This document shows positions 28,126-32,375 of a stretch of 64,000 bases of DNA, piece after piece. The position numbers and the translations under genes were made by a program. The number at the start of each line of letters is the position of its first letter. Within the stretch, counting starts at the first letter, position 1. The notes beneath the pieces are model-generated. The model saw only the letters and a program-made list of their open reading frames with translations, was not told the DNA's origin and did no database searches. The DNA is taken from positions 248,001 to 312,000 of the forward strand of contig NZ_CP016809.1 in NCBI RefSeq assembly GCF_002741055.1. The letters run 5' to 3'. The stretch comes from Paenibacillus ihbetae. Lineage in GTDB: Bacteria > Bacillota > Bacilli > Paenibacillales > Paenibacillaceae.

Positions 28126-29289
28126 TTAACAAGATTTTCTCGCGATCAATTCGAAGTCGTCGTTATTGCAACGGGGGCAGCCCGCATTCTTCAGCTTCTC
28201 AATCGTTGCGACCTGCTGATTCACTCCAACCGTAACCTGCTGCTTGCATTGTGTGCAGCTGTATATGCGTACGGTCCGCTTAATTTCACCTGTATAGATG
28301 GCATCCGGATACCGGCCAGCAATTTCTGCTGATCTAAAATCGGTCGTGCGGAGCACGAACATTTGACTCCGATTCGCGATCAGCTCCGCTCCCTCGTAAA
28401 CATTGAAGCTAGGATAATTGGCGCTGATGGTTAAGCCCTTTCGAACGAACTCGCGCTGCATAGCCAGCATGACCTCCGGCGATTTGTGAGCGAACGAGAG
28501 AAAGATCGGCAGACCTTGGACCTGCTTCAGACCATGGATTCCCCGCGAAAGGAACAAGTTCATTCCTGGCAGCGTATAGGGCGGATCGGTGTAAAAGCAG
28601 TCAAAACGACCACGTAGCTCCGGGGGAAGCGGATCCCTGACATCGTGATGATAGCAGACAATGGGCAGCTTTAGTTCAGTGGCGATCCCCCGGATAAAGC
28701 CGATAAAACGTTCGTCAATATCAACGACGTGCACGCTAGTTGCCGCATGATCGGCGGATGGGAACAGCTTGTGCAGCAGCAGTCCGATCGATATGCTCAC
28801 CAAATCATCATCCCCTATGCACAGGATTTGTTTTCCGATTAAGGTGTGATGCTGTAAGGCAAGCACAGCCCTGCGCAAGCTGGTCTCGGGCGTGCAGGAA
28901 GATTGGTCGATCTGTACGTTGACTTGCGGCCGCGAAGGGAAGATTTGCTGTAACACCGACAAGATGTCCCTCCACTCATCTGTATCCTCCCGTCCGAGTA
29001 GCATCGACCGATGGCAGTCGCGCTGCAGCCCCGCATATCCCCATTCGCGTTCAATCGATTGCCGGCCTTCTGGCGTGCATCGGGCGCCGCGGTCCTGTAC
29101 AAGCGCCCCTGTCCGAATGAGCTCCTTCTTGACGGCTGCGGCAACCGGCGTCGGTATCAGGGCTGCGCGCGCCAGCCCTTTCGTTGATACCCCCGGATTC
29201 AAATAGCATTCGATCAGAATTCGTTCTATAACCATCGGACCTTCCTGCAGTCGGATGTGCTTACTTGCCTGTGCTACGTATGGATTCAT
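28126..29289 (-). CDS. bpsA: Branched-chain polyamine synthase family protein (BpsA-like)
   Basis: 387 aa, ATG at 29289 with AGGGGGG 7 nt upstream. Residues about 20-80 are a winged helix (VIERILIECYLNPGVSTKGLARAALIP). Residues about 145-340 are a Rossmann methyltransferase-like aminopropyltransferase: GKQILCIGDDDLVSISIG with the GDDD motif of BpsA, VHVVDIDERFIGFI and DCFYTDPPYTLPG (DPPYT). Residues about 345-380 contain a zinc ribbon (CTQCKQQ then CPRCNN). The family (PF01861) adds aminopropyl groups to spermidine to give N4-branched polyamines, mostly known from thermophiles. The activity here is inferred. It sits behind a long structured leader. Confidence 0.82.
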   Translation of the reverse strand: MNPYVAQASKHIRLQEGPMVIERILIECYLNPGVSTKGLARAALIPTPVAAAVKKELIRTGALVQDRGARCTPEGRQSIEREWGYAGLQRDCHRSMLLGREDTDEWRDILSVLQQIFPSRPQVNVQIDQSSCTPETSLRRAVLALQHHTLIGKQILCIGDDDLVSISIGLLLHKLFPSADHAATSVHVVDIDERFIGFIRGIATELKLPIVCYHHDVRDPLPPELRGRFDCFYTDPPYTLPGMNLFLSRGIHGLKQVQGLPIFLSFAHKSPEVMLAMQREFVRKGLTISANYPSFNVYEGAELIANRSQMFVLRTTDFRSAEIAGRYPDAIYTGEIKRTVRIYSCTQCKQQVTVGVNQQVATIEKLKNAGCPRCNNDDFELIARKSC

Positions 29290-29318
29290 GTCCTGTCCCC
29301 CCTTTTAGTGGTAAAAAG

Positions 29319-29358
29319 CAAAAAAGGACAGAAGTGAACATACGTTCACCCCTGTCCT
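29319..29358 (-). terminator. Leader terminator T2, upstream of bpsA
   Basis: On the minus strand AGGACAG..GTGAAC pairs with GTTCAC..CTGTCCT around GTAT, then TTTTTT. It is 30 bp before the bpsA ATG. Its 3' arm CTGTCC could also pair with GGACAG in the bpsA ribosome-site region, so the two structures would compete. Confidence 0.8.
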
Positions 29359-29390
29359 CGTATAACCCTCACGAAGCGCATCCATAAAAA

Positions 29391-29418
29391 CAAAAAATCC
29401 GTACGAAAGAGTACGGAT
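29391..29418 (-). terminator. Leader terminator T1, upstream of bpsA
   Basis: On the minus strand a perfect 8-bp stem ATCCGTAC / GTACGGAT with a 6-nt loop, then TTTTTTG. An overlapping alternative hairpin (29415-29442; GGATAC pairs with GTAT and ATCC) would prevent it forming. Confidence 0.85.
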
Positions 29419-29463
29419 GCATACGCCTAGAAATAGGTATCCCTAAGGTTGGTTATATCCGTT

Positions 29464-29586
29464 GTTCTTAACTAATCCTGTGACTTCAGCTCATCCCACG
29501 CATAACGCCCCGAATGGACATACGGGTAGCGTAAAGCAGATGAATACAAGCCAAAGTCCTCGTATGGAATTATATTAGTTAAGAAC
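29464..29586 (-). repeat. 13-bp inverted repeat enclosing a foldable 97-nt core in the bpsA leader
   Basis: GTTCTTAACTAAT (29464-29476) and ATTAGTTAAGAAC (29574-29586) are exact reverse complements. As minus-strand RNA the interior can form an extended imperfect hairpin: CATACG with CGTATG, or GACTT with AAGTC and CATC with GATG, capped by CCCG..CGGG. No match to a riboswitch class I recognise. The upstream arm overlaps the last codons of the short leader ORF. Confidence 0.6.
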
Positions 29587-29598
29587 ACTCGCAGACAT
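29575..29598 (-). CDS. Putative 7-residue leader peptide (MSASVLN)
   Basis: ATG at 29598 with AAGGGG 8 nt upstream, seven sense codons, then TAA at 29575-29577. Codons V-L-N and the stop lie inside the 13-nt arm of the inverted repeat, the usual layout of translation-controlled attenuators. A longer frame through the same region (stop at 29472) would give a peptide of about 38-61 residues but has no ribosome site. Expression is not shown. Confidence 0.4.
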   Translation of the reverse strand: MSASVLN

Positions 29599-29628
29599 AA
29601 AACATTCCCCTTAGTCAAGTTAATCCCA

Positions 29629-29657
29629 ATCTTACCGGAATGTCCCAGCGAAGTCAA
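29629..29657 (-). promoter_or_regulatory. Sigma-A promoter of the bpsA leader
   Basis: On the minus strand -35 TTGACT (29652-29657), 17-bp spacer, -10 TAAGAT (29629-29634). Transcription would start near 29622, about 330 nt before the bpsA ATG. Confidence 0.65.
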
Positions 29658-29681
29658 TACAATCGTTTGTCATCCTTTCGC

Positions 29682-29710
29682 TTGACATGCATTGAATACG
29701 TCGCTATGAT
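29682..29710 (+). promoter_or_regulatory. Sigma-A promoter of the DHA2 transporter
   Basis: -35 TTGACA (29682-29687), 17-bp spacer, -10 TATGAT (29705-29710). It is back to back with the minus-strand bpsA leader promoter, 24 bp between the -35 boxes. Confidence 0.85.
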
Positions 29711-29721
29711 ATTTTCTAGTT

Positions 29722-29757
29722 GTGACTAATAGGTTTTTATAAAAACTAATAAGTCAC
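29722..29757. promoter_or_regulatory. 36-bp quasi-palindrome, likely TetR operator
   Basis: GTGACT ... AGTCAC ends with a central GTTTTTATAAAAAC dyad; two half-sites also contain ACTAATA as a direct repeat. It begins 12 bp after the -10, covering the transcription start of the DHA2 gene. The TetR gene downstream is the obvious candidate ligand. Confidence 0.65.
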
Positions 29758-29845
29758 TATAGCGGATGAACTTCTTTTTTCTGACGGCGGGAGACTTATT
29801 CGTCCTCTCCATTTTTTAAACTATTTAGAAAGCAGGTGCATCTTC

Positions 29846-31276
29846 ATGCCAAATCCAATACCAGCACAAATGCCTCAGGAGCAAGGACCGCTGCCAATGA
29901 ATAAAATCATCGCCTCGCTGGTCGCCGTCGTTATCGGAACCTTCATGGTTCTTCTGGACAGCACGGTCGTTAACGTCGCCATCCCTACATTGGTGAACTA
30001 TTTCGACAGCTCGCTTCATCTCATTCAATGGTCGATAACAGCCTACACCTTATCCTTGTCGGCAGTCATTCCTTTAGCCGGCTGGATGTCGGATAAATTC
30101 GGTCCCAAACGTGTTTTTCTGATCTCGATCGGTTTGTTTACCCTCGGATCGGTCTTATGCGCCTTGGCTCAAACGCCCCAGCAGCTGGTTCTCTATCGAA
30201 TCCTGCAGGGCCTGGGCGGGGGAATGGTCTCCCCGATCGGAATGGCCATGGTCTACCGTATTGCTCCGCCGGAAAAAAGAGGCTCCATCATCGGAATGCT
30301 TGGCATTCCGCTTCTGCTGGCTCCCGCTCTCGGTCCGGTGATTTCCGGATGGATGGTGGAATACGTAAGCTGGCAATGGATCTTTCTGATCAATCTGCCG
30401 ATTGGACTTTTGGGCCTGGTGATCGGGAAGAAATATTTGCCCTCCTTTCCTAAGCAGAAGGCGCCATCGCTGGATAAGACGGGGTTAATCCTGGGTCCGT
30501 TGGCTTTTGCATTGATCACGTTCGGTGTTGGCGAAGGCGGGGTGAGCTGGAGCTCTGTCCGTACGTTAACCGGTCTCATCATCGGTGGCGCAGTTCTTCT
30601 GGTGTTTATCTTTTCTTGCTTGAGAAAAGCCGAACCGTTGCTGGAGCTGAGAGTCTTTCAATCATCCGATTTCAGACGCGGGATCATCACATCCTGGTTC
30701 ATGCAGGCAGCGATGTACGGAACGGTGCTGCTCTTTCCTCTTCTGCTTCAGCAAGTTAAAGGATACTCGCCGTTCTCGACCGGTCTTATCCTGCTGCCGC
30801 AGGCGATCGGCTCCATGATTTTTATGCCGTTAGCGGGCAGGATCTTCGATAAAGCCGGTGCCCGTCCGCCTCTCATCGCAGGCATGGCCTTGATGACGAG
30901 CGGATTGTTTGCGATGACCTTTCTCCGAACGGACACACCGCTGCTCTTTATTCTAGTCGTTTTATTCATGCAGGGCTCGGGGATGGGATTGTCCATGATG
31001 TCGTTAAATACCTATGTATTGAATGCTACACCTCGCCATCTGGTCAGCAGGGTCACTCCACTCACCAGCGCATCGCAGCAGGTCATCGCCTCGTTTGCTA
31101 TATCGGGCTTTACCGGCTTTCTAGCCTCCCGAATGACTGTCTCCGGGTCGGACGGGAATGGGATAGCGACGAACCTGACTCCGTTTTGCGACACCTTCTT
31201 CGCTGCAGCATGTATAGCAAGTGCAGGACTTGTGCTCAGCTTCCTGATCCGGAAGCCGCAGCCTGCTGCCGCGTAA
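29846..31276 (+). CDS. DHA2-family MFS drug efflux transporter
   Basis: 476 aa, ATG at 29846 with a weak AGGTG; a second in-frame ATG 17 codons later is possible. 14 predicted helices. N-terminal LDSTVVNVAIPTL (motif D1) in TM1, motif A GWMSDKFGPKRVFLISIGLF, motif C around LLAPALGPVISGWMVEYVSWQWIFLINLPIGL: the EmrB/QacA signature. It exports lipophilic compounds using the proton gradient. It is followed by a TetR regulator, and a strong promoter with an overlapping operator precedes it. Confidence 0.92.
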   Translation: MPNPIPAQMPQEQGPLPMNKIIASLVAVVIGTFMVLLDSTVVNVAIPTLVNYFDSSLHLIQWSITAYTLSLSAVIPLAGWMSDKFGPKRVFLISIGLFTLGSVLCALAQTPQQLVLYRILQGLGGGMVSPIGMAMVYRIAPPEKRGSIIGMLGIPLLLAPALGPVISGWMVEYVSWQWIFLINLPIGLLGLVIGKKYLPSFPKQKAPSLDKTGLILGPLAFALITFGVGEGGVSWSSVRTLTGLIIGGAVLLVFIFSCLRKAEPLLELRVFQSSDFRRGIITSWFMQAAMYGTVLLFPLLLQQVKGYSPFSTGLILLPQAIGSMIFMPLAGRIFDKAGARPPLIAGMALMTSGLFAMTFLRTDTPLLFILVVLFMQGSGMGLSMMSLNTYVLNATPRHLVSRVTPLTSASQQVIASFAISGFTGFLASRMTVSGSDGNGIATNLTPFCDTFFAAACIASAGLVLSFLIRKPQPAAA

Positions 31277-31496
31277 AGCCTCCAATCCGGGCGTGAGTTA
31301 ATGTCTGCTGCGAGCATTACGTTTGGTATTTCTATCTTTTTCAGATCTTATCTGAGTGTCATGTATTTCATGCGCAAGGACTGGTACAATGTTATTCGTA
31401 CACTCCGCCCGGATGTTCTTGCGGTGTCCTTTACAACCCGGCATCCCGGGGCGATTATTGAAATATATGGATGTTTGGTATCATTGAGGAGGCGGC

Positions 31497-32375
31497 ATGA
31501 TGAGCATGATTAAGGAGAAAATTCTTCAATCGGCGGTTCGGCTTTTTGCGGAAAAGGGCTACCAGGCGACATCCATCCAGGATATCGCTGATGACTGCAG
31601 CATTGCCAAGGGCTCGCTGTACAAGCATTTTTCCTCGAAAGAAGAATTGTACGTCAGCATTTTGGAGCGGCGGCAGCAGGTTATGGTCGACGAGGTGGAC
31701 CGAATCAGAAAAAAGCAATTGTCCACGAGAGATACCTTTTTGGCGGAAATCGCCTATCAGTTTGATTTTTACGTAGAGCATGGTTATTACATATCCCGGG
31801 ACCACAATGAGCTTGCCCCGCTCGGCAGTGAAATCATCGAAGATGTCCTAAGCCGTATCCGTAGAAGCATGTTCCTGTATTATCAGGATATTCTTCGCCG
31901 CCAATACGGATCGGCGATTGAGCCTTGGAAGTGGGATGCCACCGCCGTATTCAACGGATTGATCCGTGAATATACCTTCCATCTGTTATTCGGATACAAG
32001 CCGATGGACAAGCAGGCGCTCGCTCTGTTCATTGCAGAACGAATGGACGATCTGGTGCATGGGCTGAAGCGGCGATCTGCCCCTGCCCTGCTCACGGATG
32101 AGCTCATGACCGAGTATTCGGGCTTGGAACTCCAGCCGTTGCTTGCATCGCGCGGATCGAGGAGAGATGCGCTGATTGAAATGATCGCCTCATTGATTCC
32201 GGATATCGCCGTGCCTAACCAGAGAAAACAAGAACTGACGGAGGTCGCAGCCATGCTGCGTGATGAAGCCGTGAAAGAGCAGCCGCGGTTGTTCCTGCTC
32301 CGGGCGCTTATGCGTGATCTCGAGTCCGAGAGCGAGCTCGCCTTTTACGTAAATCAGCTTCGTCAGCTGATCTAG
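31497..32375 (+). CDS. TetR-family regulator of the DHA2 transporter
   Basis: 292 aa, ATG at 31497 after GAGGAGG. The HTH lies at about 10-55 (KILQSAVRLFAEKGYQATSIQDIADDCSIAKGSLYKHFSSKEEL). The ligand domain is long (about 240 residues against the usual 150), with a second helical half after residue 200. It probably represses the transporter via the palindrome at 29722-29757. Confidence 0.9.
   Translation: MMSMIKEKILQSAVRLFAEKGYQATSIQDIADDCSIAKGSLYKHFSSKEELYVSILERRQQVMVDEVDRIRKKQLSTRDTFLAEIAYQFDFYVEHGYYISRDHNELAPLGSEIIEDVLSRIRRSMFLYYQDILRRQYGSAIEPWKWDATAVFNGLIREYTFHLLFGYKPMDKQALALFIAERMDDLVHGLKRRSAPALLTDELMTEYSGLELQPLLASRGSRRDALIEMIASLIPDIAVPNQRKQELTEVAAMLRDEAVKEQPRLFLLRALMRDLESESELAFYVNQLRQLI

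Follow-up and report, generated by a model that had tools for sequence, protein, structure and literature searches.

In the leaders of vmlR, hflXr, msrD and tlrB, a ribosome stalled on a short open reading frame (ORF) prevents a terminator from forming (PMC9226507, PMC6310831, PMC10314930, PMC6851288). We describe a leader composed of the same parts, likewise arranged, in a 64,000-nucleotide stretch of Paenibacillus ihbetae DNA (contig NZ_CP016809.1, positions 248,001 to 312,000; hereafter the window), where it lies on the minus strand and precedes a gene resembling bpsA, which encodes a branched-polyamine synthase. Comparison across genomes makes it probable that this leader is a ribosome-stall-operated transcription attenuator of the VmlR/HflXr type. 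It would belong to a family of elements whose targets include not only bpsA but also a MutS2 paralogue that lacks Smr and, in rare cases, genes of ribosome-protection or drug-handling families. Through such a shared RNA switch, stalled ribosomes would be connected with both the MutS2 paralogue and an enzyme of the branched-polyamine type.

The vmlR leader of Bacillus subtilis, which is induced by a stalled ribosome, combines an upstream ORF (uORF) in an anti-antiterminator hairpin, a TTATTT pause hairpin, an intrinsic terminator and an alternative antiterminator, all of which have proposed counterparts here. Its uORF has only three codons (MIN) and its target encodes an ABC-F protein (PMC9226507), whereas in the present element the end of the ORF is itself one strand of a helix (P1), a second terminator (T2) follows the first (T1), and the main targets are the MutS2 paralogue and BpsA. 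The rli80-hflXr system of Listeria has a comparable anatomy: a uORF attenuator controls a gene homologous to that of a ribosome-splitting factor, and the uORF overlaps the anti-antiterminator. That system has a 14-codon leader with an RLR motif and an HflX homologue as target, instead of a VLN leader and a MutS2 paralogue (PMC6310831). The msrDL leader (MYLIFM-UAA) shares the very short ORF, the preference for a UAA stop and a terminator blocked by the stall; stalling at the stop codon with cladinose macrolides is a feature of msrDL (PMC10314930). At tlrB/yxjB a NusG-dependent pause synchronizes the polymerase with the leader ribosome, a function that we also propose here, but the leader carries an RYR motif and the target is a 23S rRNA methyltransferase (PMC6851288). 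Finally, the single uORF of Escherichia coli toiL responds to more than one class of antibiotic, with ribosomes stalling at different codons, although toiL unmasks a ribosome site with the help of Rho and has no intrinsic terminator (PMC12121999).

A mechanism of this kind is already known. As far as the literature and Rfam searches made here reach, the novelty would lie in the leader peptide, the RNA family and the set of targets. No paper was found for Paenibacillus together with 'bis-aminopropyl spermidine synthase' in a search that covered neither subscription papers nor bioRxiv, and no such leader before MutS2 came up in the titles and abstract starts among the literature matches listed. 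A search for MutS within PMC2965389, PMC8632094, PMC10219788 and PMC10201436 gave no match.

A leader ORF embedded in a conserved helix

We propose that a ribosome that translates the seven-codon leader and departs would leave GUU CUU AAC UAA free to pair with the 3' arm of P1, with two further helices (P2 and P3) inside; T1 would then form and stop transcription, and T2 would serve as a backup stop. A ribosome that stalls or slows on the leader would mask the 5' arm of P1; the freed 3' arm, together with the next bases, could then capture the T1 5' strand and loop, and the polymerase would continue to bpsA. Most relatives have a hairpin and a TTNTTT motif shortly before the 3' arm, and these might pause the polymerase and give the ribosome time to load. 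Comparison argues for the uORF, P1, P2, T1, the antiterminator and the set of target genes; ribosome stalling, pausing, the inducer, passage of T2 and the function of BpsA are what we infer.

An earlier note on this DNA had located a promoter, a Shine-Dalgarno (SD) sequence, a 7-residue leader ORF, both terminators and bpsA in the window, with the last leader codons inside a perfect 13-bp inverted repeat. All of these lie where it had placed them (Table 1), the promoter with a score that is weak relative to shuffled sequence, and the two arms of the repeat are exact complements.

The leader is widespread among relatives. When 100 genus genomes were searched at the DNA level, 29 had matches, many of them confined to a 40-nt block spanning the leader ORF. 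A strict leader-ORF pattern with one mismatch allowed was present in 142 of 295 family genomes; its reversed control gave one match among the rows listed. A second pattern, in which the last codons and AATTYCATA were fixed and no start codon was required, gave at least 119 stretches. The 80 that were read come mostly from Paenibacillus and Brevibacillus, with others from Saccharibacillus, Cohnella, Fontibacillus and Gordonibacillus; two more are in records that bear the name Bacillus, and one is in a metagenome-assembled genome of Clostridiaceae. With a covariance model (R1) built from 48 leaders, the window copy among them, the class search gave matches in 77 of 398 genomes, spread over 22 of 145 genera, and the phylum search in 14 of 398, of which eight are within the class and six outside it; the family of one genome outside the class (G985) and the order of another (G754) were each represented by a single genome in the searched set. 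Peptides beginning MIS and MLSV and one MSRVLN were dropped as chance antisense matches. Since the leader is conserved in other genomes, chance is excluded for the element as a whole.

A start codon (76 ATG, 1 TTG) precedes GTT by exactly 12 nt in 77 of the 80 stretches; of the remaining three, L121 has a leader of 6 codons, L138 is degenerate and L178 matches by chance. By script, a start codon and an SD-like stretch were present in 178 of 179 unique leaders. The ORF of this VLN family usually has 6-8 codons and ends in VLN-stop; residue 4 of the peptide varies freely. UAA is the stop codon in 74 of the 80 stretches and UAG in six, and UGA occurs in distant copies. Other peptide ends are VLS and VLK, the latter in the MIKGVLK leader of L352-L354. 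One further copy (L103; genome G342, contig C5, about 97.9 kb) has GCT for GTT, giving MSVSALN, and looks like an orphan or decaying copy.

The overlap of the V-L-N codons with the 5' arm recalls classic leader attenuators, in which slow decoding of particular codons (here Val, Leu or Asn) induces the genes. Starvation for these amino acids is nevertheless extremely unlikely as the signal: the peptide has no run of a single amino acid, the targets are not genes of Val, Leu or Asn biosynthesis, and VLS, VLK and VQI variants occur.

P1 is near-invariant among close relatives, and its covariation in alignment A2 was uninformative because there was hardly any variation (the score was reached in 38 of 500 shuffles). 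P1 does vary in divergent copies found with R1. Among 55 divergent and typical copies, compared after dropping from alignment A4 nine weaker rows that came second at their locus, four pairs of P1 show changes on both sides: UA to GC in four rows and in one, UA to AU in one, AU to CG in three and AU to GC in one, several of these rows being related. Some double changes come with synonymous leader codons (CTG, AAT) or the stop UGA. In L271, GTTCTGAAC pairs with TTCAGAAC and the leader codon CTT has become CTG, so that leucine is kept; L276 and L277 belong with L271 to one family. The stop of L254 is TGA, with TCA opposite it in P1. In L341, GTTCAGATC pairs with an altered 3' arm even though the peptide reads MITGVQIS. 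The leader ORF and the inverted repeat are hence conserved among related genomes, with compensatory changes in P1 and T1 of divergent copies.

Inner structure, terminators and a putative polymerase pause

RNAalifold on alignment A1 recovered P1 and T1 only, the pairs of T1 covarying, and P2 and the antiterminator were therefore tested by comparing own with permuted pairing; near-duplicate leaders were removed before alignment A1 and before the antiterminator, P2 and pause-motif tests. The P2 strands pair at -15.9 kcal/mol with their own partners and at -8.7 kcal/mol with permuted ones (n=160, z -30), and none of 2000 permutations was as low. The antiterminator would form between the end of the P1 3' arm with the next bases and the T1 5' strand with its loop. 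Its own pairing averages -8.75 kcal/mol, against -7.71 kcal/mol when permuted (n=151, z -8.1; 0 of 2000 permutations as low), which agrees with the alternative pairing competing with T1 that the earlier note had predicted. By eye, CGGAT/ATCCG is replaced by CACAG/CTGTG in L117 and by ACGGTA/TACCGT in L121.

A TTNTTT motif, described as the NusG pause motif of B. subtilis (PMC9226507), lies mid-leader in 124 of 169 leaders, compared with a mean of 74 and a maximum of 82 in 20 shuffles. The last TTNTTT starts a median of 32 nt (interquartile range 30-34) before the P1 3' arm, and the hairpin ending at it is stabler than shuffled sequence in 101 of the 124 leaders (average -5.5 versus -2.4 kcal/mol). 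The apical motif GTTTATTT was found in 54 of the 169 leaders, with a mean of about one in 20 shuffles.

A structured domain of about 90 nt with a strongly conserved P2 pairing and a conserved apical GTTTATTT is also what a metabolite riboswitch would offer, with P1-P3 as the aptamer and the short ORF incidental. We regard this as very improbable: SD, start and stop codons stand at fixed positions, P1 overlaps codons, the motif at the apex conforms to the TTNTTT pause signal, and the rest of the middle domain varies freely. Consistent with the statement in the earlier note that no recognized riboswitch class fits, the window had no Rfam match at the gathering threshold, and a search of four loci at E up to 0.5 returned a single miRNA match (E 0.28).

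T2 is conserved in outline, and GA(A)C..GTTC follows T1 in 103 of 206 loci by a regular expression that had no shuffle control. The apical GAAC..GTTC is kept in many T2 copies, seemingly beyond the needs of a plain terminator. A second switch, in which the 3' arm of T2 would pair with the bpsA ribosome site, had also been proposed. The pairing is possible in the window (-14.3 kcal/mol), but it is not conserved: over 11 bpsA loci, in one of which (L038) the script took T1 for T2, own pairing averaged -9.8 and swapped pairing -11.1, and we rejected this candidate.

Genes downstream of the leader

Most copies read precede a MutS2-like gene. Among 99 pattern rows, 72 were assigned a MutS2-like and 25 a BpsA-like gene, one BpsA place being counted twice (L004 and L099, the latter left out of the alignments). 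Two rows were unassigned: L100 ended too early, and a MutS2-like gene is present in L104, while the longer neighbourhood of L094, L103, shows neither gene. The 80 stretches of the second pattern, which share genomes with these rows, gave 56 MutS2-like genes, 16 BpsA genes and eight without an assigned target; five of the eight have less than 750 nt downstream, and the others are L121, L138 and L178. L121, the Clostridiaceae copy, has a GNAT gene behind the leader. In Paenibacillus tianmuensis (L112), a locus scored as MutS2-like, BpsA lies behind a C-terminal remnant of the MutS2 paralogue, which suggests that bpsA there took over a leader that once served mutS2.

From the class search, 36 loci were fetched (all those outside families f1 and f23, 12 from f23 and one second f1 copy, in G204). 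The gene behind the leader is MutS2-like in 22 of these loci and BpsA in 12; in L270 it encodes a GNAT acetyltransferase and in L286 an APH-family kinase (Pfam 24.4 bits, cut-off 23.2). Outside the class, MutS2-like genes follow the leader in L351 and L355/L361, and a further target encodes an ABC-F protein that scores 463 bits against an NCBIfam ribosomal-protection cut-off of 380. In L359, two tandem ABC exporter genes (582 and 594 aa) stand behind a MIKGVLK leader, an arrangement like that of B. subtilis bmrCD, which is reportedly under ribosome-mediated attenuation. A drug-related role of the GNAT, APH-like and exporter targets is suggested by membership in these broad families.

These findings have to be set against several observations that weigh against a stall-operated attenuator of one family. 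Because most or all of the 5' arm was prescribed in the pattern searches and scripts, the invariance of this arm and the V-L-N end of the peptide partly reflect how the copies were selected. VQI replaces VLN in L341 and L351, and specificity for the leader peptide is therefore not absolute. The antiterminator shows a moderate effect: 69% of leaders pair better with their own partner than with the median swap, but some distant ones (L264, L278 and L289) have no such advantage, and the permutation tests for P2 and the antiterminator ignore phylogeny. The window copy lacks TTNTTT, and T2 has no assigned antiterminator. On the side of the targets, one leader (L103) has neither gene in the stretch read downstream, two of six retested MutS2-like genes have no leader and a third only a weak match, 11 of 38 BpsA genes are without one, and the GNAT, APH-like and exporter genes belong to broad families with few loci each. 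Even so, the comparative data on the uORF, the inverted repeat and its compensatory changes, as well as on the antiterminator and the pause motif, strongly support the ribosome-stall-type attenuator that the earlier note had proposed.

The MutS2 paralogue

The MutS2-like genes linked to the leader differ from housekeeping MutS2. Full-length MutS2 was found in all 26 genomes tested, and 23 of these have a separate over-cut-off gene that matches approximately the first 510-585 of 790 positions of the MutS2 model; in a 24th genome (G673) a short MutS2-like gene is split between two frames. The leader-linked paralogue has the MutS2 ATPase core (TIGR01069, over cut-off). No match to the C-terminal Smr domain was found in the paralogues, in which the main model match ends at about 510-585, and Pfam on one example gave MutS_V only. 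Several paralogues have weak matches (E about 1e-4) near model positions 600-725, which may be a KOW remnant. Retesting of six MutS2-like genes gave a leader that is divergent but clear before three of them and a weak match before a fourth (L342, E 0.002); the other two had none.

In B. subtilis, MutS2 splits stalled ribosomes, to which it is recruited through its KOW and SMR domains, and its loss causes sensitivity to chloramphenicol, tetracycline and erythromycin (PMC10897456). The leader-linked paralogue has the MutS2-family ATPase core in common with this protein, but is shorter and has no Smr match. By homology, the short paralogue may also split ribosomes.

The BpsA-like protein and the probable supply of its substrate

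The product of the window gene has a BpsA_C domain and matches archaeal and Thermus BpsA structures (PDB 5xnc, 6j27). The GDDD motif, which positions decarboxylated S-adenosylmethionine, is invariant in 18 of 18 aligned sequences. With residue numbers mapped through the position of GDDD, D225 and Y290 are conserved, the E259 position is His and Y316 falls outside the alignment; the Thermococcus DPPE reads DPPY, with the DPP aspartate (Tk D225) kept. The protein thus shares GDDD, the DPP aspartate, the Tyr290 equivalent and BpsA_C with the Thermococcus and Thermus enzymes (PMC12979288; 5xnc, 6j27), and departs from Thermococcus BpsA in the His for E259, DPPY and its tail. Thermococcus BpsA is described as having an acidic carrier tail (PMC12979288); no comparable C-terminal acidic aminopropyl-carrier cluster is present in the 18 sequences, which have a CxxC..CxxC stretch instead. 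We file the window protein as BpsA-like, a putative rather than a proven branched polyamine synthase.

A strong AdoMetDC match was found in all 35 BpsA-positive genomes tested, so these proteins probably use decarboxylated S-adenosylmethionine. In 30 other genomes, 20 of them shown to be BpsA-negative and ten merely not listed with a BpsA match, AdoMetDC matches were strong in four, weak in six and absent in 20. Across 290 family genomes we counted 38 full-length BpsA genes, leaving out two weak or partial PF01861 matches over the cut-off (G347, G216) and all matches below it. The pattern found a leader before 18 of them and the model before nine more. The remaining 11 had none by model R1 and an arm search upstream (L292, L294, L295, L297, L298, L300, L301, L304, L305, L308 and L309); eight of these sit in genomes with two BpsA genes, and in six of the eight the other copy has a leader.

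Possible inducing signal and biological role

The earlier note had offered polyamine level or a ribosome inhibitor as the signal, in which case the leader would be a new control of branched polyamine synthesis. Feedback on bpsA, with spermidine or a branched polyamine sensed through the nascent peptide or the ribosome, would be in keeping with the presence of bpsA among the targets and with its constant association with AdoMetDC, and polyamine-related uORF control has been proposed for the odc1 motif (PMC8632094). Yet at least 18 of 20 genus genomes without BpsA and AdoMetDC matches have the leader (15 by pattern, three by model, the other two being outside the model search), and in the eight of these that were read it precedes a MutS2-like gene. 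Polyamine feedback is accordingly not the general purpose of the leader. The rare further targets belong to ribosome- or drug-related families, and we consider polyamine sensing distinctly improbable. The part of the proposal that named a ribosome inhibitor fares better. The element is not confined to branched polyamine synthesis, given that the MutS2 paralogue predominates behind the copies read.

The signal is probably a ribosome-targeting compound or comparable translation stress, a view favoured by the other targets: the MutS2 paralogue, a ribosomal-protection-type ABC-F protein and often drug-handling families. As residue 4 varies freely, and as some drugs are thought to stall very short uORFs with little context dependence (PMC10201436), the leader is likely to be a general stall sensor. 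The polyamine-type gene in the window would then probably belong to a little-known defence against ribosome-blocking compounds.

We go further only tentatively. It is possible, if somewhat short of probable, that Bacillota have an undescribed regulon for translation stress that is marked by this one leader (M-x-x-x-V-L-N-stop inside P1), and in which the Smr-less MutS2 paralogue would free drug-stalled ribosomes without nuclease activity and the BpsA-like enzyme would protect translation by aminopropylation of a polyamine, or of a ribosomal or RNA acceptor. The latter acceptor is considered because the carrier tail is lost and the end of the protein is zinc-ribbon-like. If true, both the MutS2 paralogue and BpsA would be inducible resistance factors of new kinds. 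The prediction of two inducible translation-protection factors in Bacillota, mostly in Paenibacillus and Brevibacillus among the records named, makes a role of BpsA outside thermophiles testable, and the leader could serve as a guide to candidate ribosome-inhibitor response genes, namely those that stand behind it.

The window copy and its surroundings

The genome of the window has two leader copies, one before bpsA and one before a MutS2 paralogue. The coordinates of the former are given in Table 1.

Table 1. Features of the bpsA leader in the window (positions numbered from the first letter of the window)
Feature	Position	Strand	Basis
Putative sigma-A type promoter TTGACT-17-TAAGAT (-35 TTGACT 29657-29652; -10 TAAGAT 29634-29629; spacer 17 nt)	29629..29657	-	sequence and consensus scan, weak versus shuffles
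Shine-Dalgarno AAGGGGA of leader ORF	29606..29612	-	sequence; position conserved in alignment A1
Leader ORF MSASVLN-stop, 7 codons (ATG TCT GCG AGT GTT CTT AAC TAA)	29575..29598	-	sequence
P1 5' arm GTTCTTAACTAAT, anti-antiterminator, overlaps codons V-L-N-stop	29574..29586	-	perfect complement of 29464-29476
P1 3' arm ATTAGTTAAGAAC	29464..29476	-	sequence, exact 13-bp complement of GTTCTTAACTAAT; alignment A1
Inner helix P2 and apical hairpin P3	29482..29558	-	predicted fold of window leader
Antiterminator 5' strand AAGA..ACGGAT	29457..29469	-	complementary to 29407-29418
Antiterminator 3' strand ATCCGT..TCTT (T1 5' arm and loop)	29407..29418	-	pairing calculation
Intrinsic terminator T1 with U run (hairpin 29418-29397)	29390..29418	-	terminator scan; pairs covary in A1
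Intrinsic terminator T2 with U run (hairpin 29359-29324), apical GAAC..GTTC	29319..29359	-	terminator scan
bpsA-like gene (PF01861), presumed controlled gene	28126..29289	-	Pfam E 8e-43; PDB 5xnc E 1e-21

Taken from the vicinity of the predicted start site up to the bpsA ATG, the leader folds at -115.8 kcal/mol, compared with -84.9 for shuffled sequence (z -7.0, 0 of 100 as low), and two intrinsic terminators were found in the leader region against 0.3 in shuffles. The promoter has 9 of 12 consensus matches; by score alone it is weak, with two promoter-like sites in the region and 1.3 in shuffles. The predicted antiterminator pairing of this copy (-8.6 kcal/mol) would exclude T1, and 25% of swapped partners do equally well.

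Could the window copy be a decayed remnant, constitutively off or on, of an element that works in its relatives? It has no TTNTTT in the P2/P3 region, where most relatives carry the motif, and among the 100 genus genomes searched a close copy occurs in only one besides its own (L002, 91% identical). Decay is nonetheless unlikely, given a perfect P1, intact P2, T1, T2, SD and ORF, and an R1 score of 86 bits for a copy that was part of the model-building set.

Upstream of the bpsA leader, a major facilitator superfamily (MFS) transporter gene (29846-31276, plus strand) diverges from it and is followed by a TetR-type regulator (window 29682-32375). The MFS gene has a promoter-like site, TTGACA-17-TATGAT, at 29682-29710, and by eye the bpsA locus L005 likewise has an MFS-like frame on the opposite strand.

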